NCBI GenBank assembly: GCA_948567375.1
Contig: OX419759.1
Coordinates: 58,246,593 to 58,310,592 of the forward strand
Length of the DNA stretch: 64,000 nucleotides
Source of the DNA: Lunularia cruciata
Taxonomy: Eukaryota > Streptophyta > Marchantiopsida > Lunulariales > Lunulariaceae
Direction: 5' to 3'
In this document: positions 10,371-63,600 of the stretch, in pieces
How the letters are laid out: each line of letters opens with the position of its first letter
Numbering within the stretch: the first letter of the stretch is position 1
Made by a program: the position numbers and the translations under genes
The notes under the pieces: generated by a model
What the model saw: the letters and a program-made list of their open reading frames with translations, nothing else
Told to the model about the DNA's origin: nothing
The model's database searches: none

Positions 10371-11195
10371 TTTTCTACTCCAACCACTCACAACCCTTCA
10401 CAACCCTGCCCTTACATTCCATACATCTGCACTCTGTCCAAGCTTTCAACTCCTGCAATTTTCCAGCCTTTACATTCCTGCAAAATTTCTTCTTCTTGCA
10501 CCTCACCAAAACCCCTTCACTGTCCTGCAAAAATTTCCTCCTTCAACCACTCACAACCCTTCACAGTCCTGCCCTTACATTCCATACATTTGCCCTCTGT
10601 CCAAGCTTTCAACTCCTACAATTTTCCAGCCTTTACATTCCTGTGAAATTTCTTCTTCTTGCACCTCACCAAAACCCCTTCACTATCCTGCAAAAAATTC
10701 CTCCTTCAACCATTCACAACCCTTCACAGTCTTGCCCTTACATTCCATACATCTGCCCTCTGTCCAAGCTTTCAACTCCTGCAATTTTCCAGCCTTTACA
10801 TTCCTGCAAAATTTCTTCTTCTTGCACCTCACCAAAACCCCTTCACTGTCCTGCAAAAATTTTCTCCTTCAACCACTCACAACCCTTCACAGTCCTGCCC
10901 TTACATTCCATACATCTGCCCTCTGTCCAAGCTTTCAACTCCTGCAATTTTCCAGCCTTTACATTCCTGCGAAATTTCTTCTTCTTGCACCTCACCAAAA
11001 CCCCTTCACTGTCCTGCCAAAAATTCCTCCTTCAACCACTCACAACCCTTCACAGTCTTGCCCTTACATTCCATACATCTGCCCTCTGTCCAAGCTTTCA
11101 ACTCCTGCAATTTTCCAGCCTTTACATTCCTGCGAAATTTCTTCTTCTTGGACCTCACCAAAACCCCTTCTCAGTCCTGCAAAAATTGCCTCCTT
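10360..11195 (+). repeat. 163-bp tandem array
   Basis: The anchor CCTCACCAAAACCCCTTCAC starts at 10501, 10664, 10827, 10990 and 11153, giving four intervals of exactly 163 bases, with diverged edges on both sides. The unit is pyrimidine-rich and nearly free of stops in all plus-strand frames. Because 163 is not a multiple of three, each unit shifts the reading frame. That produces three overlapping proline/serine/leucine-rich open frames of 213-336 codons with the same repeated peptides. They are by-products of the repeat, not genes. The high similarity of the units suggests fairly recent amplification or homogenisation. Confidence 0.93.
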
Positions 11196-11700
11196 GCTGT
11201 TGCCACTAACCAACCACTTCATTCTTTCCTGCTAAAATTGACTCTCTGTTCAGCCCTCAATCTCCTGCCCTCTTGCTTCCTTGCAAAAATTCCTCTCTAA
11301 ACAGCCAATCACCAATCCTTCCTTCTTTCCTTTTGAGAGAGAAACCTCACTTTTCTCTCCTCAATATCAAGCCCTATGCTTTCCCGCGAAAATTGCTTCT
11401 CTGTTCAGCCCTCAGTCTCCTGCCCTCTTGCTTCCCTGCGAAAATTCCTCTCTAAACAACCAATCACCAATCCTTCCTTCTTTCCTTTCGAGAGAGAAAC
11501 CTCACTTTTCTCTCCTCAATCTCAAGCCCTATGCTTTCCTGCGAAAATTGCTTCTTTGTTCAGCCCTCAGTCTCCCAACTTCGAAATTTTCCTCATGAGC
11601 TCTTCTTCCTGTCCCCGACTCTCCAAAACCCTATCCTCCCATAAAATCTCTCCTCTCGAGCTGAGTTCCTTCACTGTCCTCTAACTTTTCACTACTGTTA
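11195..11700 (+). repeat. 156-bp tandem duplication
   Basis: The phrase AAAATTCCTCTCTAAACA occurs near 11286 and 11442, a spacing of about 156 bases, and CGAAAATTGCTTCTCTGTTC near 11387 and 11542. The unit includes TTTCCTTTTGAGAGAGAAACC. It continues the pyrimidine-rich block and then fades out at about 11700. Confidence 0.8.
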
Positions 11701-12200
11701 TCCCCCAAACCTTTCATTGTCACAACTCCTCTAAAGCCTCCCAAGTATTTCCAACTCAAAGACTCTTTTTTGCTCCTCCACTAAGGCAAATATTCTTTCA
11801 TTCCAATAATGTAAAACAAAACCTGAGCTAGTGTAACCCAACATTATTTCTTGGCTCAAGCCACATTAAAAGACCCCTTGAGCTAATAACACCATAACTT
11901 TTTCCGACTTCACAATAATATAGGAAGTATCTCCCGCAGCAAGGTAGCATAAAACCACACCTCAGACATATTGACATAAATCCATGTTCCTTACAACAAC
12001 TAGAAGAGAAAAAGAAAATTTATCACACCAAAAGCCTCAAGGGTACACGTGGGCTATTTTCCCGATGACAACGTGTGAGAGTATTTTAGTTAGTGCATTT
12101 TTCTTCTTGAGACAAAAGGTCTTGGAAGTTATATTTGGTGTTTTGATCAAATGAGCTTTGAGCATTTTTAATGATGGGTAATGAAGAAACAAAAGAGAAA
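11700..12200. other. No gene; spacer between pyrimidine- and purine-rich halves
   Basis: This spacer contains diverged matches to the sequence after the first pyrimidine block (compare about 11880-12075 with 8440-8640), including the phrase TTTTCCGACTTCACAATAAT. It separates the pyrimidine-rich from the purine-rich half. No open frame or RNA gene is supported. Confidence 0.5.
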
Positions 12201-12229
12201 AGGGTTTTAAGAGGGGCTGTTTTGAGGAA

Positions 12230-12480
12230 GGGACAAGAAGTGAAAAGGAAGATTTTTGAGTTGTGGTCTGGATAGGTGGACAGGAAGTGAAAAGGGAGAT
12301 TTTTGAGTTTTGGTCTGGACAGGTGGACAGGAAGTGAAAAGGGAGATTTTCAAGTTTTGGTCTGGACAGGTGGACAAGAAGTCGAAAGGGAGATTTTTGA
12401 GTTTTGGTCTGGACAGGTGGACAGGAAGTGAAAAGGAAGATTTTGGAGTTTGGTCTGGATAGTTGGACAGGAACTGGGAC
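12230..12480 (-). repeat. 47-bp tandem array (purine-rich on plus strand)
   Basis: The phrase GGTCTGGACAGGTGGACAGG and close variants start at about 12265, 12312, 12359, 12406 and 12452, a period of 47 bases (46 for the last). Each unit also carries AAAGGGAGATTTTTGAGTTT. The pyrimidine-rich strand is now the minus strand, so orientation is reversed relative to 6.2-11.7 kb. Confidence 0.9.
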
Positions 12481-12539
12481 AAGGAGAGCAAAGGAAATTT
12501 TTTTTAAGGTTTAGCCTGCACAGGAAATGAAGAAAGAAA

Positions 12540-13320
12540 GAGATTTTTGAGGGTTGGGGCTGGACTGTGAAGGTGAGAGGGAAATTTCATTTTGCTGGCT
12601 GGTTGTAACAGGAGCACATGGAGTGAAGAAAGAAAGAGATTATCGAGGGTTGGGTTGGACTGTGAAGGTGAGAGGAGAAATTTCGTTTTGCTGGCTGATC
12701 GTGACAGGAGCACAGGGAGTGAAGAAAGAAAGAGATTATCGAGGGTTGGGTTGGACTGTGAAGGTGAGAGGAGAAATTTTGTTTTGCTGGCTGGTCGTGA
12801 CAGGAGCACAGGGAGTGAAGAAAGAAAGAGATTATCGAGGGTTGGGTTGGACTGTGAAGGTGAGAGGAGAAATTTCTTTTTGCTGGCTGGTCGTGACAAG
12901 AGCACAAGGAGTGAAGAAAGAAAGAGATTTTCAAGGGTTGGGCTGGAGCACATGGAGTGAAGAAAGAAAAAGATTATCGAGGGTTGGGTTGGACTGTGAA
13001 GGTGAGAGGAGAAATTTTGTTTTGCTGGCTGATCGTGACAGGAGCACAGGGAGTGAAGAAAGAAAGAGATTTTCAAGGGTTGGGCTGGACTGTGAACGTG
13101 AGAGGGAGAAATTTTGTTTTGCTGGCTGGTCTTGACAAAAGTACAAGGAGTGAAGAAAGAAAGAGATTTTTGAGGGTTGGGCTAGACTGTGAAGGTGAGA
13201 GGGAGAAATTTAGTTTTGCTGGCTGGTCATGATAGGAGCACACAGAATGAAGAAAGGAAGAGGATTTCGAGGGTTGGGGTTGGACTGTGAAGGTGAGAGG
13301 GAGAAATTCCGTTTTGCTGG
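12540..13320 (-). repeat. 96-bp tandem array
   Basis: The anchor GAGGGTTGGGTTGGACTGTG starts at 12645, 12741 and 12837, a period of exactly 96 bases; related anchors continue to about 13290 with some deleted units. Each unit carries GAGTGAAGAAAGAAAGAGAT and TTTTGCTGGCTGGTCGTGAC. Since 96 equals 32 codons, several frames on both strands stay open with 32-residue repeats. The same DNA gives equally repetitive but unrelated peptides in each frame, which argues against a real protein. Confidence 0.92.
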
Positions 13321-14230
13321 TTGGGGTGTGACTGGAGACAAGGAGGAAGGAGTTGATTTTTGCAGGAAATGAGTTGAACTGTGGCAAGAGCAGGAGAGTG
13401 AGATCAAGAGGGTTTTGCTGGGTTGGGGTGTGATTGACAGGAAGGAAGGAGTTGATTTTTGCAGGAAATGGGCTACACTGTGGAAAGAGTAGGAGAGTGA
13501 GATCAAGAGGGTTTTGCTGGGTTGGGGGGTGATTGACAGGAAGGAAGGAGTTGATTTTTGCATGAAATGGGCTACACTGTGGAAAGAGCAGGAGAGTGAG
13601 ATCAGGAGTGTTTTGCGGGGCTGGGTTGTGACTGGAGACAGGGAGGAAGGAGTTAATTTTTGCAGGAAATAGGCTGAACTATGGAAAGAGCAAGAGAGTG
13701 AGATTAGGAGTGTTTTGTTGGGTTGGGGTGTGACAGGAGACAAGAAGGAAGAAGTTGATTTTTCTAGGAAATGTGCTGAATTGTGGAAAGAGCAAGAGAG
13801 TGAGATCAGGAGTGTTTTGTTGGGCTGGGGTGTGACTGGAGACAGGAAGGAATGAGTTGAGTTTTGAAGGAAATGGGCTGAATTGTGGCAAGAGCAGGAG
13901 AGTGAGATCAGGAGTGTTTTTCTGGGCTGGGGTGTGACTGGAGACAGGAAGGAAGGAGTTGATTTTCATAGGAAATGGGCTGAATTGTGGAAAGAGCAAG
14001 AGAGTGAGATCACGAGTGTTCTGCTGGGCAGGGGTGTGACTGGAGACAAGAAGGAAAGAGTTGATTTTTGCACAAAATGTGCTGAACTGTGGAAAGAGCC
14101 GGAGAGTGAGATCAGGAGTGTTTTGATGGGCTGGGGTGTGACGGGAGACAGGAAGGAAGGAGTTTAATTTTGCAGGAAATGGGCTGAACTGTGGCAAGAG
14201 CAAGAGAGTGAGATCTGGAGGGTTTTCCTT
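13320..14230 (-). repeat. About 102-bp tandem array
   Basis: The phrase GGGGTGTGACTGGAGACAGG or a variant recurs about every 100-103 bases from 13323 to 14134 (roughly nine units). Each unit also has GGAAGGAGTTGATTTTTGC and AGAGCAGGAGAGTGAGATCA. Open frames of up to 177 codons on the minus strand follow the period and are not credible genes. Confidence 0.9.
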
Positions 14231-14299
14231 GAACAGGACTGTGAAGGGGAAGAAGAGAAAAATGTTGTTGGCTGGCTGGTCTGGACAGGAGTGACCTAT

Positions 14300-14960
14300 T
14301 GAAGAGAGAATTTTGAAGGTTGGCTTCCCTGATCAGTAGCCAGTGACACGGGTAATTTTGAGTTAGGGTTGCTCTGGCTGGAGAGGAATGATTTTTTCCA
14401 ATGTGGAGCTTGTTTGTTGTGAGATTGTTGACAGGAGAAGAAGATAATTTGAATGGAGAATGTTTGATGTGAAGAGGTGGACAGGGATGAATTTTGAATG
14501 TAGAGGATTTGTTGTTGAGAGTGTGGCAATGGAGAATCTCACAAAGGAGAGACTGGACAGAGTGGAGGAGAGAGAGTTTTTTGAGGGTTTGGTTTGGACA
14601 GGAGTGACCTATTGAAGAGAGAGTTTCAAAGGTTGGCTTCCCTGAGTAGTAGCCAATGACATGGGTAATTTTGAGTTAGGGTTGCTCTGGCTGGAGAGGA
14701 ATGATCTCTTGAATGTGGAGCTTGTTTGTTGTGAGAGTGTTGACAAGAGAAGAAGATAATTTGAATAGAGAATGTTTGTTGTGAAGAGGTGGACAAGGAA
14801 TGATTTTGGAATGTGGAGGATTTGCTATTGAGAGTGTGGCAGTGGGGAATTCCCATGAGAGTTTTGCAAGAAGAGCAATTTTGAATGGAGAATGTTTTCT
14901 ATGAAGAGGTGGACAGGGAATGAATTCCGAATGTATAGGATTTGCTATTGAGAGTGTGGC
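14300..14960 (-). repeat. About 312-bp tandem duplication
   Basis: The segment starting GGTTGGCTTCCCTGATCAGT (about 14318) recurs at about 14630 (GGTTGGCTTCCCTGAGTAGT), including GGTAATTTTGAGTTAGGGTT in both. A shorter inner repeat (GAGAATGTTTGTTGTGAAGA type, about 14456, 14767 and 14887) runs through it. No gene is seen. Confidence 0.85.
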
Positions 14961-16060
14961 AATGGAGTGAATTCTCACGAAAGAGAGACTGGACAAAGTG
15001 AGAGTGGAGGAGAGAAATTTTGCAGGGAAGCTGATGCCTTGAGAGTGTACATGCCAAAGGAGAGAAATTTTGTTTGTTGGCTTGGTTTGGACAGAGAAGA
15101 GAAAGAGAAGGATACGGGTTTGCCCTGGATGGAAATAGAGGAGAATTCAAATTTGGCCTAACAAGAAGAGAATAAAGAGAAGGCTTCAAGTTTGTTGGCC
15201 CTAGACAGAGACAGCTAGGGATTTGAGTTTGGCCTGAACAGAAAAAGAGGAAAGGAATTTCAAATGAAAGTTGCAAGTATGAGGGCTGTTGTGAGAGAAG
15301 CTGGAAAGTGAAGAGAATTTTTGAAGGGTTTTGATTGCATGAGGAGTGAGAGTGGACTGAAGATAAATTTTCACAGGGTTTTGTTTGCCCTGAGCAGTGA
15401 GAGTGGTCAGAAGAGAATTTTTGAAGCGTTGTGTTTGGCATGAGTAGTGAGAGTGGAAGAGAGGAATAGTGGAGAAACATTCGAGAGAGGAAGGACTTTA
15501 CAAAGTTTGGCTTCCGCTCAGGGACCAGTGAAAGATAGACAAATCTTCAAAGGATTAGGTTGGAAAGTCAAAAAAGGAAAGCCTGGGAGCAAAAGAAGGA
15601 TTTTTGCAGGAGAATGTAGGGTTTGATGAGGAGTTGACATGGAAGAAATCTTGCAAAGGAACACAAGGGAGTGTGAGGGATTTTGAATGTGCCGAAGTGA
15701 TACTAAGGAGGAAAATATTGAGGGGCTTGGATTGTGGCAAGAGGACAGGAAGAAGGAGAAATTCAAACAGGAATTTGGACTGGAGATTGTGACAAAATTG
15801 AGAGAGGCATTAAAATTCATGAGATGTTTGGAGAAAGTGCTATGCTGAGGAGGTGACAAGAGAGGAAGAAAGTTTTGAGAGAAATCTGCTGGCTGTGCAT
15901 GGCAAGAGAGTGAGAAGAGAAATGCCAGAGGTGATGACAGTACAAATTTGTTGTGACAAGAGGGGAGAATCACCAAAGGAGATTTGTCGAGCAACAATCT
16001 TGGGGCGTCACGCAGGGAACTAAAAACAAGAAGCTAAATGTTGTAAGGGATAGGAGTTAG
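14960..16060 (-). repeat. Purine-rich degenerate tail of the block
   Basis: The plus strand stays G/A-rich with loose repeats (GAGAATTTTTGAAGGGTTTTG type near 15313 and 15412, GTGAGAGTGG near 15347 and 15389). The minus-strand open frame of about 190 codons at 14899-15480 is low-complexity, rich in Ser/Leu/Pro, and is explained by base composition. No gene is supported. Confidence 0.65.
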
Positions 16061-40597: not shown

Positions 40598-43500
40598 TTG
40601 TGTAAGACATCTAAGAATATTCAATCCCAAGAGGGGAATTTTGTCAAGAAAGCAACCATAGACCATGCTTTGAAGGAATATAAGTCTCAAGATAGGAAGT
40701 TTGTTAGTGAAGATACCATAGTGAAAACTTTGGATGAAGATAAGTCTAGTTTTGCAATGTTAATCAAGCCAATTGCGTATGGAGGATCTGAGGAAGATCA
40801 AAAGCCTCATCAAGCAATGGTTGATCAAATAGTCCATGAGTTTTTAAATGTGTTTTTGTGTGATATGCCAAAGGGATTACCCTCCAATTGTGGTATGCTC
40901 TTCAAGATTGAGTTATTCTTAAGAAGTACTCCAATGAGTAGACCAATCTATCTGCTCTCATCAAAGGAGTTGGATGAGCTCTGAACAACATTGACAAAGT
41001 TGTTAGAGAAGGATTTCATATAACATAGTACATCTCCTTATGGAGCACCGGTATTATTTGTTCCAAAGAAGGATGGAAGACTTTTGCTTCTGTATTGATT
41101 ATCATGGCCTCAATAAACAAATAGTGAAAAATGCACATCCCTTGCCTCAAATTGATGACTTGCTCAATCAATTGAATGGTGTAGGATACTTCTCCAAGTT
41201 GGATCTCCAAAGCGGCTATTGGTAAATTCTCATTGTCAGAGATGTACAAAAGACTACCTTTTGCACAAGGTGTGTGCATTTTGAGTGGAGAGTTTTGCCT
41301 TTTGGGCTCACTAATGCTCCAACAATCTTCATGGATCATATGCATTGGGTGGTGGATGGGCTATTGGATTGATATGTGGTGGTGTTCTTGGATAGTATTT
41401 TAATCTATAGCAAGACAAAGGTAAAGCAAACAAATCATGTACGAGAAGTCCTAAGACAACTATGTCAATGGAAGTTTTATTGCAAGAAGTCAAAGTGTGT
41501 CCTTTGGTTGATGGAAGCTACCTTCTTGGATCACAAGATCTCAGCGGAGGAGATCAAGATGGAAGGGGAGAAAATCAAGGCCATTATTGATTGGCCTACT
41601 CCAAAGGATGCTATAGAAGTATGAATATTTAATGGAATGGCAAGTTTTCACCGACTATTCATCCACCACTAATGCTCATGTGATTGTCCCATTGACCAAC
41701 CTCTTGGGGAAGAACTTGAACTTTCAATTGACCACCAACCATGAAGAAGTTATTCCAAAAGCTAAAAGATATGGTGTCTTCAAGACCCATTCTTCAACCA
41801 TATGATCCTCAACTATCTTATGTGGTTGATTTTTGATGTTTCTAACTTTGCAATTGGAGCCATGTCATAGCAAGAATTCCCAGATGGATTAATTCCCAAA
41901 TGAGTTACATCCTTTTGCCTTTATGTTTTGCCAAGTAAATATAGTAGAAAGGAACTACTCTACTCAAGATTGGGGATGACTAGCAATGGTATATGCCACC
42001 AAATTATGGAGGCATTATTTCTTAGGGAAACAAGTGATCATGCAAATTGATCACAAGTCCTTGTTGCAAACATTACATTTGGAACACATGAAGAGTTGAC
42101 ATCATTGATAGGAGGAACAATTAAAATTTTTTCATATCAAACTTGAGTACAAACCTGGTTGGTTTTATGTCATCCCCAATGCCTTCTCATGATGTCTTGA
42201 TTTGAAGTCTCTTCCTCTCATCACCGTGGCAATTACAATGGTATCAATTAACTCCTAAGTCCAAATCAAGTTTAAGGTAGCTTTACAAAAATTTCCTTTC
42301 TTTCAAATGGTACAAGGTCATCTTACAACATGTGACAAGGAGTACAAACCTTCTTCTTCAAGGAAGGCCTTCTTTTTTGTGAGAACCGGATTTATGTTCT
42401 AGCTAAGGGTGATCTCCAACTTGTGCACCTCCAAGAAGCCCATGACTTACCAATTGTTGGTCACATGGGTGTGGACAAGAGCTTGGGTACCCTTCAATGC
42501 CAATGGTGGTAGCCCAACATGGCACAAGATTTTCAAGAGTTTGTTTGATCTTGTGAGAGCTGCCAATGCAACAAGGCTAGCAACCAAAAACTGAGTGGGA
42601 TCCTTCAACCACTCCCCATTCCATCTAATAGGAACACATAAGCTTAGATCTCATCATATTTTTACCCAAGATAAAGCAAGGTCACATAGCAATCATGGTG
42701 TTTGTGGATAAGCTTAATCAGCAAATCTATTTAGCACCAACCTTTGATACCAAGATGCTCCAACATTGGTGTAGATCTACTTTGATAGTGTCTTCAAGCA
42801 TCATGCGATACCTTGCATATCATCTTTGACCATGATCCTTGATGTCCTGGAAAATTTTGGCAAACACTCTTCTAGATACTTGGCACCAAGCTTGTCTTGT
42901 CCACGGCCTATTATCCTCAAACTGATGGACAAACTAAACATACAAATTGCACCTTGGAGAATAATTTGTGCCTTTGTCAATGTTCACCATACCTATTGGG
43001 ATGAATATCTTGCAGTTGTTGAGTTTGTATACAATCATTCCAAACATGCAAGCACTAGATTCTCTCTTTTCTTCCTTAATTTTGGCCAAGATTCACTTCT
43101 TCTAAATTCCCTTCTTGCTCCTCCATCTCATGTCTCTCATACTTCTACCTTCTTGACCACCATATCCCAATCCCTCCTACAAGCCAAATCTCATCTCCTT
43201 ATTGCTCAGAATTATCAAAAACAATATGTAGACCACCATCATTTTAATCTGTGATCAAGTTAGTGATCAGGTCATGCTCTTGTCTAGTAATCTACCCCTC
43301 CCACTTGATACCATCCGTAAACTTGCTCCTAATTGGATAGGACCCTTTGATATCACCCAAATCATTTCTCCTATTGCTTATTTACGTGCCTTGCCTTGTC
43401 ATATACGCATCCACCCTATCTTTCATATTTCCAAGTTGAAACCCTTTGTTCCTAACCCATCTTCTTTTTCCTCTCGTGTCCAACCTCCTCTTCCTCTTCC

Positions 43501-43620
43501 CATCCCTATCAATGATCATGAGGAGTATGAAGTTGATCATATCCTTGCATGTCACCACATTCAACAAAGCCATCAATAACATATAGAGTATAAAGTCCTC
43601 TGGAAAGGGTATCCCCTTCA
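40598..43620 (+). pseudogene. Second chromovirus RT, RNase H, integrase, chromodomain
   Basis: [22 protein letters not shown] and LDLQSGYW (41040-41225), LPFGLTNAPTIFMDHMHW (about 41298), then FLDSILIYSKTKV where the usual second Asp of the FLDD box is Ser (41376-41624). RNase H words are scattered over 41780-42200. The integrase zinc region lies near 42440-42590, and core and C-terminal parts at 42826-43260 (FVNVHHTYWDEYLAVVEFVY). A C-terminal segment is open at 43274-43579, ending in a chromodomain start (EEYEVDHILACHHIQQ). The chromodomain continues after a stop at about 43580 (IEYKVLWKGYPL). It is a chromovirus, but a different family from the 24.2-kb element by sequence. Confidence 0.88.
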
Positions 43621-43724
43621 TGATGCCACTTAGGAGCCTCTTTCTAATCTCCAAATGCCCAAACAACCATCCAGGAGTTTGAAGCTTCAATGATGACAAG
43701 GATCCAATTAGTGGTGGGGGAATA

Positions 43725-44197
43725 TGTAACAATATGGAGTTTACATACAAGTTAGTCAAGGCTAAGAAAGTAGGAAATAGGCCAAATTAGCCTAGAATAT
43801 TTTACAAGTATCTAGGAAGCAACTTGGTACCTTCTCAAGTATTGAGTAACATGCATGCCAAATGGTGATTTCTAGGAGGAATTTTCTTGGGAAGCTTCTT
43901 GGCTAGCTTAGCTTGCAACCCAAGTAAATAGCTTATAGAAGGAAGCTTCTAACTAGCTTAGCTTGTATACCAAGTTGGCAACTTCTAGAAGGAAGAAGCT
44001 TGAGAAGTTTCTCAATTAACATAGCTTGTATTCCAAGAAAGTGGCTTAAGGAAGATTCTTGAGAAGCTAGAGCCTTGTATGCTCCCTATAAATACCAAAG
44101 CTGATGCTCATGCTAGGCATTTAAAGTTTCCTACACTCAAGTGTCCCAATGTGATCTTCCATTCTCCTATTTCTCTCCTTGGTCTTGGTCTTTTACA
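43725..44197 (+). repeat. 3' LTR of second chromovirus
   Basis: It begins TGTAACAATATGGAGTTTAC after a GTGGTGGGGG purine tract and ends GGTCTTTTACA. It is followed by TCTAC (44198-44202), the same five bases that precede the 5' LTR, so both boundaries of the 5,623-bp element are certain. TGTATGCTCCCTATAAATACC near 44077 looks like a promoter box. Confidence 0.93.
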
Positions 44198-44202
44198 TCT
44201 AC

Positions 44203-45033
44203 AACACAATCCCCACTTGACTAATCCTGGGGATTTTACAATGGATTCTGGTGCCTTGTGCATCCTCCTTGGCACATAGCTACTTCCTTTCCTTTCTATC
44301 TTCATGGTATTCCTACTTCTCTTTCTCACTTCCCAATTCCCCTTGCACAGACACACTCTCTTGAAGTTTGAAGGCCTAAGTAAAACTTCTCACTAGGGGT
44401 GAAGGAAATGCAGCTTGTCTCACTTAGATTGATTTTGCAAAAAGTGAAAATTTTCTAGGCCCTAGATGGATATTTAAGGTGTTGGCCCAACAATTACAAA
44501 GTTTTGGTACGAGCACCCTTTGGTGAGCCACAGCTACTTGCACATGTGCATGGTTAGTACAATTGGATAGTCATTAATTGTGGTTCTTGATCTATCGGCA
44601 CTATATTTATTCATGAAATGTCAGGCCAAGGGGCTTCCAAGCCATGGAATTATCTGCCATGCCAAAGGTCCATCTTCAAGACAAAGATCTTCCAGGGCAA
44701 GGGGTTTCCTTGCCAAAGGTTCTCTTGGCTGACCATCTTCCTTCTCTTAGAGCCAAGCTTTGTGCCCTTGGTCAAGATCTTCTACCACTAACTCTTCCAC
44801 AGCATATTTCTTCCCCGTCCTTTTCCCTTCAAAGGTGGAGCTTCCTTGGGGTGAAAGGTAATCAATCATCTGCCTCCCATCTTGTTTACTGAGTGCCTAT
44901 ATCTACACTCTTCCTGTCCAAGTTCTACAAAAACAAAAACAAGAAAGGTGTGCTTTCAAAAGGGGTGAGGCATCACAAGTATACACAGATAACTATACTA
45001 GACAGAGGTGCAAAACCAAGTGACTTTGAAGCA
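44203..45033. other. No recognisable gene
   Basis: The stretch between the chromovirus and the virus-like island. An 82-codon open frame at 44644-44892 has no recognisable domain. Nothing can be supported. Confidence 0.4.
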
Positions 45034-45334
45034 CTATCCCTCTAGTAATCTCTTTAATTTTTCTGAGGCAGTTTCTAGCCTCATTGCATTAGATCTTGAT
45101 ACTAGGGATGAAGAGAAATGATTCTTAGTCACGGATACAACATTTTTGCCATTGATGCATATTTTTTGTATTGCCCTTATTTTATTCTTCTCAAAGGAAA
45201 TGTCATCTTTCTTTATTCCCAGCTTCATGTACACTACAACACTGGTAGAACCTTTTCAAGGTCCTTGCCATTGATAGCCCATTGCTACTCTCGAGATACT
45301 CTCTTATCTTGTTTCTGGATATAGGCTTCGCCAT
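45034..45334 (-). pseudogene. Two short overlapping frames beside the polymerase relic, unknown
   Basis: One frame runs 45334-45203 (starts MAKPISRNKIREYLES) and a second, in a different frame, 45234-45034 (KLGIKKDDISFEKNKIRAIQ; ends ETASEKLKRLLEG). Both are basic and helical and lie on the same strand as the polymerase, downstream of it. They could be one small gene broken by a frameshift. I do not recognise the family. The position suggests that they belong to the same inserted DNA, but this is inference. Confidence 0.3.
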
Positions 45335-45763
45335 TTTGTGTGAATATTAGATCTTCTTGTTAATATCTACATTGATACCATATCACTATTGTTCAGTGTT
45401 AAGTACGGATATATTTTTCCTGATAGACTAGTAGAAAGTAGTGTACTACAAAGGCCATGTTTTCGTCAACTAAGCATATTTTGTTCCCTTAGAGTTATTT
45501 ATGGTATAGATGAGCATTTAAATGAAACAAAGAATGTAAATACTATTATAAGTGTTAGTATCCTGTTGCTAACACACACAATTGTGTAACCTATTTTAAG
45601 AGAGCGAAATGCAACTCGTTATACACTAATATATCGAGTAAAGAGGTAAAAGAAATCTATTGAGTTGTTGAGCATGATGAAAAGACATACTTTGAGAAAA
45701 AAAATACGTGAGATCAAAAGGTGCTTGTTAAAATGAGCAATCCATCAAGCACAAACCTTCTTG

Positions 45764-48207
45764 CTATAATGGATTAATTTCTGCTGTTATGAAACCTTTG
45801 AGAGCACCTGAAAACTCTTTTACCAGGGGTCTTTGACCCAGGAGTTGCATTATTTGATCGATAGGATTGGATATGTGGTTCTCGATATAATACAAATAAT
45901 CTATGTCTAAGCCATGAGGTACAAATAAATGTGGCGGACACATCTTATGGCCTTGGAGTGTGTATCCTTTCTTACTTTTGACGAGCACAAATTCCAGTCT
46001 GTCACCAGGCACAGCGTCTACTCCCAGGTATTGCAGTCTGTTCCTGTATTCCAACAGGGGTGTGTCCTGTTGGTATACAGCAACAATATTCTATGTATCC
46101 TTTTCCCAATATTCTAGTGATTACCAAGTCCTTTAGTGGGACTTTGTTATTTATCAGGAGTAAAAGTTCATGTTTAACAAATTTTATTATATCTTCGTAT
46201 GATGATGAGTTCATTATCATGTTTATCATGCAATGAGAACATGTTCTTTAGAAACAGACAGCTATCCCTTTTGGATACAACAAGTCCCTTGTATATCATC
46301 TTTTGTTCTCCTGCTACCAGTCCTATATACCTCTTTTGTGTTACTAAGAGAAATGTTCCAACTACACTCTCGAACTCTAGACTTACAGGAGCAGGAAACA
46401 CTTTTGACACATCATTAGATATAGATGTTGCAAGAAATTTGCAGGATTCGTAGTCCTTAGCAGCAGGTGATGTGAACATACAAGAATTTGTATCGCCATA
46501 CACAAGATCCACTAGATACTTGGATGATATGATATTCGCTGTCTTTGTTAGCATAAATCTGCCTACTGCTGTAGTTGACTCAGCTCCCTCTATAAATTGC
46601 AAATACGGAGAGTTACGAGTTCCAGGGGAGCCATAAGCAGATATTTAAAGCAGATTGTCGTCCCTCAAGAACTATCTTTTCTATGCCAGTAGCAGTGCTA
46701 AAGTGGGCCTTAATTTCCTTTCTTTTTACTATCAGTGTTCTCAAAAGAGAAGGTACTAGACCCAGGGGCTTTTTGACAAACTTGCAGACTCTTCCACCTG
46801 GTATGTATATTTCAAAACACGGTTGACTGTTTTCATTCCTAACAAATGTTGAATGGCATATATTATGACATTATCACAGAAGGATACAAACTTGAAAAGT
46901 CTGCGTAGAGCACCACTTATACAGTTCAGGAGTGGGATAGACACTAGCACCCTTGTACTCGAATTCTTCGAGCAGTGAGCTGGCCTTATCGAAAATTACA
47001 TTCTTATCATGACATTCTTTGTATAGTTGAGACTTTACTCTTATTTGGGGCCTCTCGTGTAGAGATCTCTAATCCTTGTTCTTACAACAGCTGACATCTC
47101 CGTAATGCTAATTCATACGTTCATGTTGTCGAACAGGGCAACAGTCAGTAAAGAGTCAGCTATACAATACTTTTCAATCGTTTCCATTGCTGTTCTATCT
47201 CCTATATCAAATAGCTTGAACACATCTTTGTATGAAAGGTCCACTTTCTTTTCTCCTATGAACTTTTCTGAGACAAAAGCAAAGACCATAACTCTGTAAT
47301 TTGTATCGTTTTGTAACGTACTGGTATACATCTACGACAGTGCGTCCCGGTACTCAAGTACTATATAGTCGTTGAATCCGTGCGCTGCACTGCTCCAATT
47401 TACAACTATTCTCTCAGTGTCCATATTGCTAACTCTGGATGCCGAGGGCAGACTAACAAGCTTTCTTATGAGTCTTGTGTCAATATACTTACAGTCAAAC
47501 ATGAAGATGTTATACCCTATTGTAACATCTGGATTTATCTCTTTGGTACGTAGAAAGTATATCTGTATGAGATCCTCTTCACTTGCAAGTGCTATTGTAT
47601 GAGCATCATAGATGTATATATCATAGTTTCAAATGTACAGAAGGTACCTCTTAGGGGTTTCTCCCATGAGATACCTTTGCGACACTATCGAAATTATAAA
47701 GACTTCATCTTTTTCCATACAAGGATCAGGCATGGCATTACTACGAGAGGAGTATACCTCTATATCCATGCTCATAGTTAGCGGTCTTGGTATATCTCTG
47801 CTATCTAAAGCTTGTATGGACTTCCAACTGCAAGTATACTCGAAATCTGCCGTACAACATCTGGTGACAAATGGAACAAATCCACATCCTCTTGTGAAAC
47901 AAAATTCTCAAAGAGAAATGCAAACTTTTCAGGACAAAAAGATGACCATTAAAGTAGCCCTTTTCCAGCTGTTTGTACCGACAAACATTCCCATGCCACT
48001 GTGTATCATGTTCGTCTTTCTTGTCAAATACATCTGATAGACGAATCCCATTTACGATCATTCCTGTGATACCCAACGAGTCGATAGCGGAATTTATAGC
48101 CTTTATACGATGGAGCGATTTATGCTGTATGCTTGACCTATCCCGGAAATCCAGCGAATAACATTATACACTCCTTGCTCATCGCTGTCTGAAGTAGTGT
48201 TTCCCAT
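45764..48207 (-). pseudogene. Family B DNA polymerase relic, giant-virus (NCLDV) type
   Basis: Read on the minus strand, all signature motifs occur in order. Exo I is MDIEVY (47769-47752). Exo II is GYNIFMFD (about 47518-47490). Exo III lies within EKYCIADS (47175-47152). Motif A is DFSSLYPSV (46901-46875). Motif B is represented by SAYGSPGTRN (about 46644-46605). Motif C is YGDTNS (46500-46483), where the second Asp of DTDS is Asn. The thumb follows (KRYIGL near 46340; PGDRLEF and DIDYLYYIENHISNPI at 46010-45840), ending at a stop at 45764. Family knowledge: this layout and the thumb are those of polymerase delta and the NCLDV enzymes, which replicate DNA with proofreading. No introns and no delta-type C-terminal Cys clusters are seen, so a viral source fits better. 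At least five frameshifts or stops break it. The start is uncertain; an ATG at 48207 is the best candidate. Confidence 0.88.
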
Positions 48208-48362
48208 ATTGCTATACAGATAGCATATGTCCTGATCACAATACTAGCAGCAAGCAAAGCAAACAAGCATTCGAAAAAAGAAATCGCTATAGGTTGTGTT
48301 CATAATATTGTTTCTTTAGATATTACAGAGTACAACCGTCTACACAACAGCAAATGAGGAAC

Positions 48363-49600
48363 AATGGCAAATCAGTCCATTGCGAAGTCCCTATCAGTCT
48401 CCTTGGAGCATCGTGCTCCAGACAAAAAGGAGATCTTACATAGGAAATGTCCCCTGTCTATAGATGGTGACTGTATAATGTAACCCCGATAGAATGGAAT
48501 TGCTACAAGTGTGCCTCTATTCTTTACCGTGGATCTAATGGTTACTACTATTGTGAATGCGGATCAGCTGCATCAGAGTCATACTCTTTTAGATGTAATG
48601 GCAAGTTTCATGGCGAAGACTTCATTATGCTTAGCAAACCGGTTGATAATCTTAAACTGGATCAGAAGTTTGCTGATCTTGAGACTAACGTTCTCCTATT
48701 GGGACCGACAGGAGTTGGTAAATCAACATTTATCAACGCACTTGCCAACTATCTGACGTTCGATACGCTTGAAGAGGCCCGGTAGAAACAAACCAGTAGC
48801 TCTGATATATTCTAAGATGATAATAACAACAGATGACTCTGAGGAAAAAAAAATTGTGATCGGAGATGATAGTACAAATGAAGGTGGAAGTGACAGGGAA
48901 ACAGGACAATAGTGCACTCGAAACTGCAAATCATATCCGTTGGCCATAGGGAACGAAAAGATATTGAGAATAATAGACACTCCCGGAATAGGAGATACCA
49001 GAGGGATTGATCAGGACAAGACGAATATTAAGAACATTCTTGCATACACATCTTAATATGATAGCATCAATGCTATTTGTATCCTCTTCAAGCCAGATGA
49101 GACCAGACTGAATGACTCCGTCTCTCAGGTACTGTATCATGGAACTCTTTGTACAGCTGGACAAAGACGCTGCTAAAAACCTAGTGTTCTGCTTTACAAA
49201 TACGCGAGGTACGTTGTACCGTTCCAAGAGCAACAAAGAAGCATATTGATCTGTTGCTGTCTGATATCAACAATGAAATGAACGATACCAACACTCTCAA
49301 GTTAAACAAATGCACCATGCATTGCTTTGACAGTGAATCGTTTATATTCCTGGGCATGTAGCCAGCATGGAATTAGCTTCAGTGAAGAGGATTCATATAA
49401 GGGTAGCTAGAGACAGTCAGTAGAAGAGTCCAGTCGTTTGATAGGCCATATTGCATCTCTTACCCCACCACCCTACTGACAAGATCCTATCGCTCAACAG
49501 CTTCAAGGAAATCCCCGTGCAGATGCAAGTACCTCTTGTTAAAATGACTGCAGCAATAGAAAGCAATACAAGCAAATAGAAGAAGAAAAAATCATAATCG
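48363..49600 (+). pseudogene. P-loop GTPase relic with N-terminal Cys-rich segment
   Basis: An open stretch (to a stop at 48782-48784) first shows paired cysteines, WNCYKC and YYYCECG (about 48495-48575), then CNGKFHG. The G1 loop GPTGVGKST follows at 48702-48728. After a stop, other frames show VIGDD (about 48858), DTPGIGDTRG (from 48976; G3), FCFTNTRGT (about 49187; G4-like) and CFDSESF (about 49326). This set resembles a TRAFAC-type GTPase family that I recall mainly from fungi and invertebrates, often uncharacterised; I cannot name it firmly. At least four stops or shifts make it a pseudogene. It points away from the polymerase, with about 150-290 bases between the starts. No introns are seen. 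It shares decay level and setting with the polymerase, so one insertion event is likely. Confidence 0.78.
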
Positions 49601-52600
49601 AACAAAGAAGTACCTCTTACGAGGAAAGTAAAAAGTACTCATGATACCTCGTGTACCTGATGTAGACCAAGTCCCTTATGCCGAGGGAGCAACATTTCCT
49701 CCAAATGCATCGACTCCAAGGTGTGGATCCACGAAAGACAGGAGCCTAAGAATTTTGGTCGTGGCGTCCATTGTCCAGTCTTTGCAATGTGTGCCGATAC
49801 CTGGACAACAGAGAATATTATTATATTCAAAGTCACGTTTCTGATCAGGTGGACACGGTGCTTCAGTGTTTCCACTGGGCGTATGCTGGGATTCCGTCAG
49901 CGAATACTCAGGGCATTAGGAACTTGGAGCTGTTGCCATGGATATTCTGATCATTGATATCTTTCCAATTCGCTGTCTCGTTGGGATGCGCTGCGAATGG
50001 CCTGCCACTGTGAATCTATGTACTGAAGATATAATCAGAATGTGGTACTTGTTCTTTTATCATAAAACCTCCACCTGATTGGACGGTGCTACTGACTGAG
50101 AAGGAAGAGGAAGTGGAAGAAGATTTAGAAACGAGGGTGGTGATCTCCTGAACTTGAGTGCTTACCATAAATAATGTAGGTTGGAGCTACTGCTTTAAGT
50201 TTACATGGGAAACCATTCACTACAACGTCTCCACCGTCCCCGATTTGTTACCTCACAACCAACAGCCAACCAGTGCAGAATTTCACACTTTGGAGCTCAG
50301 TCGACAGGAATCAAAGGGTTCAGATGCTGTGGTTCACGCTCGTCGATCACCATTTGATCCATACACAGTTTTTTCTTTCCCAAGGTCAAGAACTCAGCCG
50401 CATAATCTTGGATCGTAGCCTTGTAGATGGATTCATCGTCATTCGTAGACTGTAGCAGTTGCGTAAAACTGAAAACTGGGGCATGAATATACATCAATTG
50501 GGGTACAGAACCTTTTGTTGCACATATCACCATTCGTTAACATTTTTTAATATGAACTCCATTGGATTATGTGTATCACGTGCTTGACCTAATACAAAAT
50601 TGCCCTGTTGATGTTCTGTTGATGTTATGTGACTATATCGATAGATTTGCTAGCAGTTGGCTTGCCATTTGGGGAGAATGGCTAAGGTATTCATTATTTT
50701 CATTAAGGATCTGTTGTTTCAACACGAATGAGAATAATTCCAAATACATATTATTCTTCTAATGGATTTATATCGAGGTTTGTGAGATATCACAGACTGC
50801 AGCAAAAAGATACGTTGACTCATCAAATCAAGAGAACACCGGTGGGTTTTCTCCCGTAGGTTGTGCAGCCTAGCATACTTTTATGCCTCGTTGCTCTCAT
50901 AAGTTCGGACCTAGATCATGTGATTTAATTGCACATACGATAGCCTCCGTCCTTGATTGTCGAAACCTCTTTTTTCAACTTCTTTTTTTTTTCAACTCTC
51001 ACGTTATCTGAGCTCTGATGTACCACCCTAATTCCTGCAGGTTGCACTTATGGAAAAGGATAAAGTCATCTTCATATCGTTCTTAACAGAACCTCCACAA
51101 CCAACGAACATGAGAAAGGCAAAACACAATATAAGCTGCCTATACCTGAATCGTCGAGTGGTTGCGGATCGATTTCATATACCAATATGACTTAGGATCT
51201 TAAGATAGTGTCAGGAAATTGTAATGCGCCAATTCCCTCTTGGTTCCAGTACTATGATGCATTTCTACTCCAAAAGTAAACGTAGCTGACTCTGGACCTC
51301 TTGCAATGGACTTACAGCTATAAGTAAAATCTAGTGCTCGTCTTATGCACATGGGGTAACACTTCTTCAGACTGCCAGCTTAAGTGTGTGCGTACCTACG
51401 TCCAAGGAAAAAAAATAGCAGCGTTGGAGGTAAAATTACTGATCTATGAACAGGAAACAGTTAAGTGTTTCGCTCTGCTGGCCAGGTGAAAAATGCTTTA
51501 CGCACATTCGTGCTACCTTGTGTATTTCTGGCAGTGCAGATATTCTGACTTCTTTCTCCCTGTCGAAATTGATAGCGTCTTATCTCGCAATTGACAAGAC
51601 AATTTCATTGCGAGTTGATTAAAACGGGGTTAAAGTTCTCCGCATATCCGATTATAAATGAAGATTCTGGTGAACCTGCCATGACCCTCCAATAGCAGGT
51701 CAAATAAGCACGAAACAATAATGCATCTGCAGCTTTATCCTCAGTCTTCCATAGAGACAAACACTGATCTCCACCACGTTTTGGATAAGGAAACGAAACG
51801 CGTCATAGTCCCATGATAGCACGAGTGTCAAAACAGTCAAAAGAGTCGAATCTTTAATTTAACACCGTGCACGCAGAGTGACTTAAGCTCTGCACGCGTG
51901 AGTAACAGTTGAACTTGATGTCGTAAATTGTTGTTTCCTAGTTTAAGAGTTTCATATTGTCGGTGACAACAGCTTCGGTCAGCGCGGTCGCAGATGCATT
52001 CCAGCAGGAAGAATAATAGTGATCTTCGTTAGACAGTGGCGTACGAAGCTACAACTACTTCGGCTGTAAAGGGATCAAGGTAGTCTACATTATCAGTAAT
52101 CCGCCAGAGAACCTTCTCCACTAAGAATGTAATCTGCAATCATTTTACTTCCCATCTGTACACATTACTGCGGGAAATGTCCTGTAACTATAGTAGAGTA
52201 CTGCTCTCTTCTAGGCCTGAAAAGCGAAAGCTTCTATCACTGTCAGAACTCTTGTAACTTCACACACAGACACAGAAGATGCCAAAATCATATTCATGAC
52301 TCACACGAGATGCCGTCGGGACCCGAGACATGATTAATGCCGTTAGAAAGATAAGTTGTCGTGCTCAATAGAAATGAATTATCAGAATTCTGAAGTCCTT
52401 TCCCTGGCAATTCTTCATCTCCGCTTCCCCTAACGTACCAAAGCAGATCAAGGGAACGACTCAGCAAACCACAGTAGATAACAAAGAGCGCTCTTGATAC
52501 GTCGAAGTTCATACTTCGATGTATCAAGTGAATTCTTAGCGAATGGATAAGACATAGAGAAACTGTTGAGATTCTTCGTTTCTGGCTTTGGAACTTCTCA

Positions 52601-55410: not shown

Positions 55411-55634
55411 AGACGCCCGGACGTTTTACGGTATTGAAAGTCGGACAGGGCGAGTTTATGAGCAGGTCAACCACGGGGAGGATATAATGGGTAGTAAATA
55501 AAATTATCGTGCTCGCAGTCTCTCGAGAGCGACACCAATCAGTTGCGCTGACAGTAGAAGCTCCAAGGATTTGCAGTTGAGAAATTGCCGAAGTGAGGGA
55601 CGTACAATTCTGGATATATTTGGCGAGTAGTGAA

Positions 55635-57377
55635 ATGAGGAACTTCTTGTTGCTGTGTTTGTTGCTGAGTTGTTGCATTCAGAGCTCATTTGCTCGGGTG
55701 GGGCCCAAGGAGACGAGGCAGTACTGCGATGCTTGGATGAAGAATGTTGAAGCTCACAACATCCGGAACTGGAGACTTAATCCATCCGAGTGCTTTCCAT
55801 TCATCAAGAAGTACATGGAGAAAGGCCAATACTTCGTAAGCTCTTCGTCACCTTCTAATTGCAGATTATCTGTACCTAGCTGTTCTGATTTGGAGACGTA
55901 TATGTACTTTTTCCAAAGACATCCGAGTCGATGGAATTACAACTCATACAATACTCTGGACGGAAAATTTTCAGCCAGAAACTTCTCATCAGAATCAACA
56001 TTGAAAATTCTCCTGTTGAACTTTTCCCACATCTCTGCAACTCAATGCATCTGCTATGACTCGATTTTGATTGCCAGTTCCATACTCAGCACATTGCGTG
56101 GACTCCCTACATCGCATGGCTGGTCTTTGTCAATTCGCCTGTTGTTCAATGCCAAATCAACTAAATTTGTTCTAGGACAGCGGGCTGTGCGCTTGTGGGA
56201 TCTTACTCCTGCCGTACCTCTAATAGCATACATATTTTAAGACGAAAAATTTGAAACTAGAGCAGCTTCAGACCAGCTCTAGGTTGGTAACTTCTGGTGT
56301 GTGCACAGCGTTGTTTGTATGAATTTTCATCCTAGCTGTGGTAACTTCATTCCAGAGCTTCGTTGTTTTACAGATAGACCTGAAGGTAGCTGTGAATGCA
56401 ACGTACGACTACTTGAAAACCATCAAAACTGATGGTCATGCTGCAGTCATGTTCGATATTGACGAAACTCTTCTGTCCACTGCTGAGTATCAAGCTCTTT
56501 CCAATTACGGGTAAGAACACGTTGTCCGGGGAGAAGAATTTTATCGAATGAAACTCACAACTGGATTATATTTGAGACGTTTGGATATGAATTTGAGATT
56601 GATGTAAGTAACGTCTAGATGGTGAACATGATGGTGAACATTTCTGTGATTCTGAATGTTCAGTGTCAATACTGGTTTGCAGAAGCATCCCGTTCAATTC
56701 AACAGCTTTCGACGCATACGTGGACTTATCTAGCTCTCCAGCTCTTAAGGAATCGCTTGCTTTATATAATAAGCTAAAAGCTGATGGGTGGAAACTGATC
56801 ATAATCACCGGAAGAAACGAGGAATTACGACCAGCCACAGCGAAGAATCTACAATTTGCTGGGTACTACGACTACGACGAGCTGATTTTGAGGTAAGAAA
56901 CTGACCGTTAAGTGATCCTTCATAAAGTGGTTTCTCCAGTCGTAAGGATGAAGAGTTCAAGGTGCTGTCTCTTGAAGATATTTGACAAAACCTCCCATCT
57001 CGTTTCAATCTTCAATCCCTCTGGAACCTACTGTAGATTCGGAGAGTGAATTGAGTGACAAACCATTGGTGCAAAATCTGCCGCTGTGTAAATTAATCTT
57101 CGCTGGAAAATAGGAGTTTGAAAATAACTGGAAACTCTCTAACCAGACTCGATACGCTCGATACTCGATACACATGAATCACACTGTTCCTTATGTCAGG
57201 GCGCCGGAACAAAAGGGGCTCACAGCTGGAGTCTACAAGTCCATTGCACGAATGAAACTGGAACAGGAGAAAGGTTACGTCTTCAAGAGCTGCGTTGGTG
57301 ACCAATTCAGCGACTGTGAAGGTGAAGCCAAGGGTGACCAGACCTTCAAGTACCCCAACCCAATGTATTATGTCTGA
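55635..57377 (+). CDS. Class B (HAD) acid phosphatase, vegetative storage protein-like
   Basis: Four exons join without stops: 55635-55835, 56374-56510, 56683-56892 and 57200-57377. All have GT/AG ends (GTAAGC, GTAAGA, GTAAGA donors) and matching phases, giving 241 residues. The start at 55635 is chosen because a hydrophobic signal peptide (FLLLCLLLSCC) follows at once. The mature part begins with CDAWMKNVEAHNIRNW, typical of plant family members. Motif I of the HAD fold is intact (FDIDET, exon 2), as is motif II (ITGRNEELRPATAKN, exon 3). Exon 4 has VGDQFSDCEG and ends NPMYYV, the usual C-terminus. Family knowledge: these secreted or vacuolar enzymes remove phosphate from monoesters at acid pH; some relatives are storage proteins lacking catalysis, but here both Asp of DIDET are present. 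It is the best preserved gene in the window, with its own TATA and poly(A) signals. The physiological substrate cannot be read from sequence. Confidence 0.95.
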
Positions 57378-61942: not shown

Positions 61943-62251
61943 TTATCCACCGCTGATCGGAGGAATGATAGCCAGTTCATCACCCTCCTTGACCTTCACA
62001 GGATCGGTGATATATTCATAATTCAAGGCGACCACGATGCTATCACGCATTACCTCCAAAGCTGAAAAGCGAGCAGTCAGCTCCGTGACGCAATCAGCCG
62101 TTGTAGCTCCTTCAGTCATGGAAATATCAAATTCCGATCCGCCGGCAAGCTCCCGGGCTCGGGCGAACAAGAGAACCTTAACTCTCACCTTCTGCTCTTC
62201 CTTCAACTCCAAATTCGGAACATCCTGTGACTTCTCCATCTCCATCTCCAT
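61943..62251 (-). CDS. MOCS2A: Molybdopterin synthase small subunit (sulfur carrier)
   Basis: An intronless frame of 102 residues with a ubiquitin-like (MoaD) fold. It starts with an acidic lead (MEMEMEK), then the first strand VRVKVLLFARARELAG, the helix TTADCVTELTARF, the strand IVVALNYEYI, and the signature end ELAIIPPISGG. The free C-terminal Gly-Gly is essential: sulfur is attached there as a thiocarboxylate, and two sulfurs are passed to precursor Z with the large subunit to form molybdopterin for the molybdenum cofactor (cytosol). Length fits the plant protein (CNX7 in Arabidopsis). Three in-frame Met codons lie in the first five residues; the first is used here. Nothing is broken and the gene stands alone. 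No close poly(A) box was found. Confidence 0.96.
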   Translation of the reverse strand: MEMEMEKSQDVPNLELKEEQKVRVKVLLFARARELAGGSEFDISMTEGATTADCVTELTARFSALEVMRDSIVVALNYEYITDPVKVKEGDELAIIPPISGG

Positions 62252-63600
62252 CTCCTTCTCCCTGGACCCTACTACTTCACTTCATCAATCTGAGTTTCTC
62301 AGATTTTCTTTCAAACAGATGACATTTCCTAACCTGACATAAATTTTAATCTTCTATACTTTCAGCAGTACAGTGGAATTCGTTACGCAGAGAACAAAAG
62401 CTGCAAATTCTTGAGCAGAAGATCTGCACCCTTCTCTGAGAGTGCAACGAGAAACTCATGTTCCACTGTGCTACGGCACGGGAAGATCTCGTGATTTACC
62501 GGCAAAAGGTACCGTGGTCACCTAAGAAACCGGCTCTAAAATCCAACAGTCAAGAGGAATATTTTCCTTGGCATCCGTTGCGATCGGATTGTGAAGCTGG
62601 CTAGTTACTACTGTAGTCAAACCGCCTGTCAGTCTGTTACCTTTTGGATCAAACTGTGTAGTGAGGATGCTCGCGAGCTGCACAGTTTACAATAATTTTA
62701 CTGTGGTTCATCGATCTTCGTGGTAAGTGCCTCTCAGCAGTTCACGCAATGTTCAGTGGTCCATCGATGTCCATGGTACAGTCTTGCTTACTGTGGTTCA
62801 GTGTGTGGGGAACACGTTCTCCTACCAAGGTAGGTAGTGCACTACACAGTAGTGCATTACGCAGGCTCTCTTGAATGATTTGGTTGGGGGTTCCACCATG
62901 AGAACTAGGTCTGTATATTCCCTGTAGTTGCCGCAAAAGCCCATTGCTATGCCAATCCGCTAAATCCATTCTTAGAGGTATGGGTTGCCATAAATCAAAT
63001 ATACGAAGTTGGAGGACGAAGTGGACTGGTGACGCATTTGCAAACCGAAAATGGCAAACTTCCCGGACGCAAAATTCTGAGTCTGAGTCAGAGATGGACT
63101 CAACGGTTCCCTAACTTTGGCACATCGACTTAATGGCACCCCAAGTTGGCAGAACAGTCCTACTGGGCACTTTATGTCACGAACTACTAGACTATGTTCT
63201 TGTAATTCCCTACTGTATTTGAAAGATCCAATTTCATGTAGAACATGGCTGGTCACTTTGCTAATTGTGGAAACTCGAAAACGGACTGGATGCTTTTGTA
63301 ATTGAGGACGTTTGAGGACAATGACGTATGTGTTTTGGAGAACGACGATTGATCCATAATACACATGGAATTGTGTAATTATAGGGTAAATGGTTTGTTG
63401 AAGGAGCAGATCAACCATGGCCGGCTTGGGGCGGAACGATAAATTTCGACCACAATACTGAAATACACTTCCGAACTGGAGTTCAGCTCGAAGCGAAAAG
63501 TAATTAGGTTCTCAAGTTGAAAGAAAAGTCGACCGCGTAGAAAACACGAAGGAAGGGAAGACCCCATCAAGCCGTATAAGGGTGAGTAAAAATAGGTAAA
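62252..63600. other. No recognisable gene; upstream of MOCS2A
   Basis: Contains the presumed promoter of MOCS2A near 62260-62450, without a clear TATA box. Short open frames (a 148-codon minus-strand frame at 63418-62972 is the longest) have no recognisable domain. A loose local repeat (TGTGGTTCATCGATC and GTGGTCCATCGATG) lies at about 62702 and 62757. Confidence 0.4.

Follow-up and report, generated by a model that had tools for sequence, protein, structure and literature searches.

In the nuclear genome of the liverwort Lunularia cruciata we found a degraded gene that is confirmed to be a real, though broken, family B DNA polymerase of the RNA-primed type. Very probably it is the dead and partly deleted polymerase gene of a large DNA virus of Nucleocytoviricota type, inserted in the nuclear genome of an ancestor of this liverwort. 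The window, that is, the whole stretch of DNA analysed, is 64,000 nucleotides long (C8:58246593-58310592, contig OX419759.1). C8 is a 64.5-Mb contig, and the genome searched is the 566-Mb assembly of 74 contigs; C1-C12 denote contigs of that assembly, with positions in Mb. P-numbers stand for proteins found with the L002 polymerase or with GTPase queries, L001-L003 for IMG/VR loci. The features are collected in Table 1.

A broken polymerase gene on the minus strand

Exonuclease motifs I-III, motifs A-C and the thumb can all be read in order on the minus strand, intron-free, across stops and at least eight frame changes (our own count; motif coordinates were counted by hand from the reading frames). 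This arrangement was already described in the initial annotation and it stands; the extent given there, 2.4 kb up to 48207, does not. The polymerase begins at about 47886 instead: the last 250-320 bases are not polymerase, and from 47960 they go with a neighbouring GTPase fossil. When aligned in a single frame with P0062 in the genome search, the fossil shows 14 stops in 577 codons, some of them at places where the true frame differs. In motif C, the final aspartate is read as asparagine.

Six of the ten stop-free minus-strand pieces match PF00136 or PF03104 in Pfam at E<=0.002, the best piece values being 2.8e-22 for DNA_pol_B (PF00136) and 3.2e-10 for DNA_pol_B_exo1 (PF03104); two of these six lie under the curated cut-off (17.7 and 18.6 bits vs 23). 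The thumb piece at 45764-46090 matches PF00136 at 0.0017, under the curated cut-off. Among the other four pieces, two have no Pfam match and two match unrelated families only, weakly. The initial annotation had suggested translating the minus strand in three frames and searching with a family B profile. With a profile made from 136 reference polymerases, the scores of nine real pieces range from 121 down to 13 bits, while the top of 300 dinucleotide-preserving shuffles of 45400-48700 reaches 6.6 bits. In addition, tblastn with the L002 polymerase aligns the exonuclease part at 34% identity over 258 positions, spanning two stops.

The copy on C2 extends about 143 residues further towards the N-terminus, and the window has no match to these residues. 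On the other side, the stretch at 45123-45766 is probably part of the same insert, because it is common to the C10:38.277 Mb copy; it holds no recognisable gene.

Ty3-type elements lie to the left of the fossil and, beyond the GTPase, host genes to its right (Table 1). One of the three acid phosphatase pieces scores slightly under the curated cut-off for PF03767. We take the repeat at 44214-44916, also present at the C1:7.507 locus in a different arrangement, to be a host repeat. Further away, window positions 6200-16000 form a long repetitive tract with extreme GC skew and peptides recurring in several frames.

Table 1 Features of the window, and copies of the two fossils elsewhere in the genome. 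Codon-position values are mismatches to the window at positions 1/2/3; p compares position 3 with positions 1+2.
Feature	Position	Strand	Evidence or remark
Ty3-type retrotransposon remnant	40625..44197		left flank; type recognised by eye; similar element at C11:26.63 Mb, 78%
Stretch downstream of the polymerase	45123..45766		common to the C10:38.277 Mb copy; one alignment 45123-45991, 75%
polB fossil: family B DNA polymerase of giant-virus type, broken and 5'-truncated	45767..47886	-	Pfam, tblastn, shuffle control
Thumb pieces, two frames	45767..46247	-	blastp 59 bits to P0029, 41 bits to P0091
Palm, longest stop-free piece	46177..46644	-	PF00136 2.8e-22; motif C YGDTNS 46500-46483; KRY 46335-46327
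Motif B	46630..46660	-	split by frame change
Motif A DFSSLYPS	46878..46901	-	third frame; also a short tblastn segment with the L002 polymerase
Exo III piece	47116..47331	-	YCIAD 47169-47155; alone no Pfam match; best blastp 54.7 bits to P0082
Exonuclease domain pieces	47335..47907	-	Exo I DIE 47766-47758; Exo II GYNIFMFD 47517-47494
Stretch recurring with the GTPase at C11:25.04 Mb without polB	47960..48386		junction of the two fossils ~47887-47960
Broken zinc-ribbon + G-domain GTPase, DUF8206-type	~48387-49561	+	final stretch 49469-49561 weak, 26%
Host acid phosphatase (HAD IIIB), several exons	55581..56893	+	right flank; PF03767 on three separate pieces
Host ThiS-family protein, presumably the molybdopterin synthase small subunit	61946..62281	-	PF02597 1.6e-16
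polB loci 1-9	C8:58.29 (window), C1:75.93, C6:58.10, C10:38.28, C8:4.03, C8:4.18, C8:4.30, C11:26.63, C2:5.39 Mb
polB loci 10-18	C3:0.26, C1:51.76, C1:7.51, C1:70.03, C1:7.43, C2:23.96, C7:36.38, C2:19.40, C10:52.34 Mb
polB copy, codon positions	C1:7.51 (7.507)		28/21/53%; 25% at 1+2; p 2e-17
polB copy, codon positions	C1:7.43 (7.435)		27/23/49%; p 4e-10
polB copy, codon positions	C2		25/17/48%; p 6e-6
polB copy, codon positions	C1:75.9		11/12/10%; 12% at 1+2 vs 10%; p 0.41
polB copy, codon positions	C6		10/11/19%; p 0.001; intermediate
polB copy, codon positions	C10		15/7/20%; p 0.004; intermediate
Broken GTPase copies	C1:26.73, C7:48.73, C11:50.11 (two rows), C2:19.40, C11:25.04 Mb (two rows)
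Open GTPase frames, two	C12:49.49 Mb

Relation to viral and cellular polymerases

The longest fossil piece alone retrieved no relative from IMG/VR or from the protein collection. Relatives came from an IMG/VR scan with two Pol delta rows added, which gave 14 loci; L002 fits the window region best. A search with its polymerase gave 604 proteins, the best 120 of which were used further. In tblastn every one of these 120 aligns with the region 44000-50000 (E<=0.01), and the largest summed scores (sums that count overlapping segments) belong to P0044, P0062 and P0074. In a FastTree tree the references fall into two large polymerase groups, here called sets I and II, with L001 outside them, then yeast Pol delta together with L003. 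Members of both sets are metagenomic (IMG/VR included) or come from fungal genome records. These polymerases are the closest sequences found, and the fossils stand on a long branch of their own. Several set I proteins (P0044, P0082, P0084, P0097, P0105, P0106 and P0108) are longer, and their alignment to the window breaks at motif C, where the window has no insert; in P0044 the YGD/TDS motif is interrupted by what reads as an intein-like insert.

The initial annotation had described the motifs and thumb as being in the style of giant viruses (NCLDV) and polymerase delta, and the scores favour the giant-virus type. For each of the nine window pieces the best set I/II protein scores above yeast Pol delta in bits; here the top score among 120 proteins is compared with a single delta row, yeast, the only full one used. 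Examples are 107 vs 66 bits and 67 vs 32, and the closest case is 30.4 vs 27.7. For one piece the yeast match is missing, which carries no weight because the Exo I region is absent from the yeast row. The top-scoring set I/II protein for each piece has 31-43% identity.

Could the fossil derive from the plant's own Pol delta or zeta, as a pseudogene or a retrocopy? It is a family B polymerase of delta style, Pol delta is the best solved relative of its longest piece (53.5 bits against PDB, vs 33.5 for herpesvirus, 26.7 for Pol zeta and 22 for poxvirus), and introns are absent, as a retrocopy would have it. However, the palm piece that gives 107 bits with sets I/II and 66 with yeast delta reaches 36.6 bits with the host delta locus and 37.0 with the host zeta locus. 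A PF00136 search of the genome gave 26 matches, and from their frames we take the host's own genes to be the putative loci at C10:5.62 Mb (delta, many exons), C6:2.74 Mb (zeta) and C7:55.72 Mb (alpha); yeast delta aligns with successive exons of the C10 locus at 32-91% identity. A place within plant Pol delta or zeta, named at the outset as what would overturn the viral reading, was thus not found: the putative host genes are separate loci, and by score the fossil is nearer to polymerases of giant-virus type than to cellular delta or zeta. We regard an origin from the plant's own polymerases as very unlikely.

Trees were built from separate pieces of six fossil loci with metagenomic, IMG/VR or fungal-genome references, none of them a named member of Nucleocytoviricota. 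From the 136 references 57 were chosen, with no more than two from any cluster and without 11 distant IMG/VR rows; those whose segments were over-long (e.g. inteins) or short were then removed, leaving 56 references for the exonuclease part and 51 plus one host zeta row for the palm part. Branches are long throughout. The fossils form one clade in two alignment pieces, with SH-aLRT support of 100 (6 rows) and 93 (3 rows). In the exonuclease part they fall among set II rows with low support (28 and 62), and the tree that holds I and II together without the fossils scores a log-likelihood 17 higher (p-AU 0.80). In the palm part they lie outside I and II at 97, or 96 with three long rows omitted; the palm piece thus sits on the delta side of both sets, as a delta retrocopy might. 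Nonetheless delta lies beyond the fossils and sets I and II, together with L001, which groups with delta though an IMG/VR row; support for this is 70 and 79 only. We read the fossils as a separate lineage beside I and II, of uncertain place and with long-branch doubts; there are good indications that the virus lineage is one not yet named.

Transfer from a fungus with virus-derived polymerases of its own deserves more weight than a cellular origin, and we still consider it unlikely. Liverworts live with such fungi. Among the 120 listed proteins, five are named from Mortierella, Linnemannia, Podila, Bifiguratus and Ramaria, all in set II, and the GTPase pieces beside the polymerase match fungal proteins well (64% over 47 residues to the Entrophospora protein P0130), animal and metagenomic ones too. 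Against such a transfer, the fossils form their own clade, outside set II for the palm piece, and the two fossil subfamilies described below differ mainly at third codon positions.

Further viral genes were also sought. A family search with PF08706 (D5_N) found no match, its control matching; PF04451 (MCP) and PF04947 (VLTF3) found none either, but there the controls did not match. A Pfam survey of 73 reading frames at 44.0-55.8 kb, taken from 150 listed for 44-64 kb and excluding the main polymerase pieces on purpose, matched only a GTPase P-loop piece. The 592-residue protein adjoining the polymerase in L002 found no match when used as query. By eye it had been considered a capping enzyme, and this was dropped: Pfam gives it no family, and PDB gives weak C-terminal methyltransferase hits, the best at E 0.096. 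Because the searches found no second core gene and the trees hold no named giant virus, the label NCLDV is taken from the polymerase alone and from the literature on similar fossils.

Copies across the genome, their history and known inserts

A DNA search with 45767-47886 gave at least 24 matches in at least 18 loci, counted by merging matches within 15 kb (the tool gives counts as lower bounds). Besides the window there are 17 loci: 13 on six other chromosome-scale contigs, three on C8 and one on a small contig. Three of them are weak (C7:36.38, C2:19.40 and C10:52.34 Mb, with E of 8e-9, 1e-8 and 4e-6). Identity to the window is 79-84% for C1:75.93, C6, C10:38.28, C11 and C3. It is 65-73% for C2:5.39, for C1:7.4-7.5 and, in the C8:4.0-4.3 copies, for most rows, the shortest rows being higher. 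DNA was examined for nine of the 18 loci. All seven with frames read are broken or truncated (the window, C1:75.93, C6, C10:38.28, C2:5.39, C1:7.51 and C1:7.43), and the C3 and C11:26.63 copies are short polymerase pieces only.

Three fossils lie within 0.27 Mb at C8:4025295-4298162 and all jump from about query position 613 to 1212; since this internal gap is common to them, they descend from one shortened copy that was multiplied locally. The copies at C3:258647-263171 and C11:26623963-26628534 (L128-L131) have about 4.5 kb in common, flanking a 0.2-kb polymerase fragment on either side, a block that could be a host duplication or a mobile unit carrying the piece. Flanks of other copies have further kb-long blocks in common.

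Such dispersal, and perhaps the C3/C11 block, would also fit a transposon or linear plasmid that replicates itself by means of a protein-primed polymerase, like Polintons or killer plasmids, or else a transposon with a captured polymerase fragment. Yet the pieces match PF00136 and PF03104, PF03175 (protein-primed polymerase) is absent from the ten pieces at E<=1, and the copies vary in extent with no common ends seen on non-systematic inspection. An element of this kind is very improbable, to about the same degree as a retrocopy of the host polymerases.

Mismatches between copies were counted by codon position (Table 1), in tests that assume independent sites and with C1:7.51 and C1:7.43 not independent of each other; with 88 and 28 phased bases, the copies on C3 and C11 do not allow such a reading. 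Because of their third-position excess, C1:7.51, C1:7.43 and C2 seem to have split from the window copy under selection. By contrast, the mismatch of C1:75.9 is even across codon positions, so its split from the window copy was neutral. C1:7.51 and C1:7.43 differ from each other by 12/12/13%; the block that follows them downstream, which includes part of an LRR-type gene, differs by 10%. On account of this even difference and the roughly 10% in the shared block, the two were duplicated inside the host. The block had been considered as a viral gene and was rejected, as it holds the LRR-type host gene (by eye). At C1:7435001-7445000 a 1301-residue open frame, LRR-type by eye, stands beside the polymerase fossil (L114 1544-5446, minus).

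These patterns suggest that two polymerase subfamilies diverged while functional and then underwent neutral decay and duplication in the host. Probably at least two virus lineages were fixed, although the same codon pattern would arise if a resident copy had been under selection for a time. Viral DNA would have entered germ-line or gamete-forming cells and been joined into the chromosomes through host repair or by accident, in at least two lineages; the inserts would then have decayed without function, cut up by deletions and retrotransposons, with fossil pieces copied along with host DNA. The many fossils thus point to repeated entry of giant-virus relatives into the germ line of an early-branching land plant. 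There is about an even chance that a distinct, unnamed lineage of large DNA viruses beside sets I and II long infected liverworts, at least two of its members being fixed independently, and that it perhaps persisted in bryophytes generally.

The polymerase fossil sits in a host chromosome, as seen from the flanking host genes, the dispersed copies and the joint duplication with the LRR-type gene. Contamination or misassembly, which the initial annotation had raised against itself, is extremely unlikely: the 18 loci are spread over one small and seven chromosome-scale contigs, the 17 beyond the window including a pair duplicated with a host gene, and the fossils show decay and duplication with host DNA.

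Endogenous giant-virus DNA in non-seed plants is already known, and the liverwort case is a new instance. The accessible text of one survey (PMC5294986) places the DNA polymerase of a moss in extended Pithoviridae, the sole positive among 110 land-plant genomes; its Table 1 assigns the DNA polymerase and D5 of P. patens to Pitho, apparently with nothing for MCP, ATPase or VLTF3. In the part available of a second paper (PMC10640383), nucleocytovirus genes are cited from moss and 'fern', after Maumus et al. 2014. The moss Physcomitrium (Physcomitrella) patens is likewise a non-seed land plant whose nuclear genome carries an inserted DNA polymerase of virus type; in L. cruciata the host is another, there are two polymerase subfamilies, and D5_N has no match. 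The same second paper describes, in the part available, an asfarvirus-like giant element in Rhizophagus irregularis, with polB dispersed in 15 to 33 copies per genome (PMC10640383). As here, these copies are spread over chromosomes, besides one large insert; as far as that text goes, five marker genes lie there in a 1.5-Mb region, whereas here polB, perhaps with the GTPase, occurs in short pieces only. Our literature search, made at abstract level and with most subscription papers outside its reach, found no giant-virus insert reported for a liverwort. With fossils in a liverwort, one more early line of land plants would be shown to have been reached by these viruses. The fossils also provide sequence marks for dating insertions and seeking living relatives, and are useful for studying how hosts silence old inserts.

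The neighbouring GTPase fossil

Next to the polymerase, on the opposite strand, lies a second broken gene (Table 1). Its pieces match general P-loop families, MMR_HSR1 and AIG1, weakly in Pfam; with DUF8206-type proteins (PF26633) the best match is 50% over 96 residues to P0158, across zinc ribbon and G domain. A genome search with the first GTPase piece gave 10 matches, the window included. Compared with five broken copies, the GTPase shows a mixed pattern, with mismatches of 17-25% at first, 7-18% at second and 19-36% at third positions.

The GTPase may have come with the same virus. Its family is common in fungi and animals. That polymerase and GTPase are native neighbours was not upheld: 47960-48889 recurs with the GTPase at C11:25.04 Mb, and the polymerase is absent from C11:25037518-25046000. 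At C2:19.40 Mb the two lie 3.3 kb apart, in a different relative orientation and with a polymerase match of only 56 bases.

Two long open frames of DUF8206-type GTPases stand side by side at C12:49490358-49497840 (L137 and L138). In these host frames, unlike in the window GTPase, the G domain is not preceded by a zinc ribbon (by eye). Among the 120 listed of 661 hits (7994 candidates scored), the L137 frame comes nearest to proteins of Marchantia paleacea (87% identity), Riccia fluitans (82%) and M. polymorpha (80%), and no other protein exceeds 41%. This one protein makes a complex thalloid liverwort the most likely host. The other relatives listed belong to fungi, to animals (rotifers and insects among them) and to metagenomes, a spread that may reflect lateral transfer.
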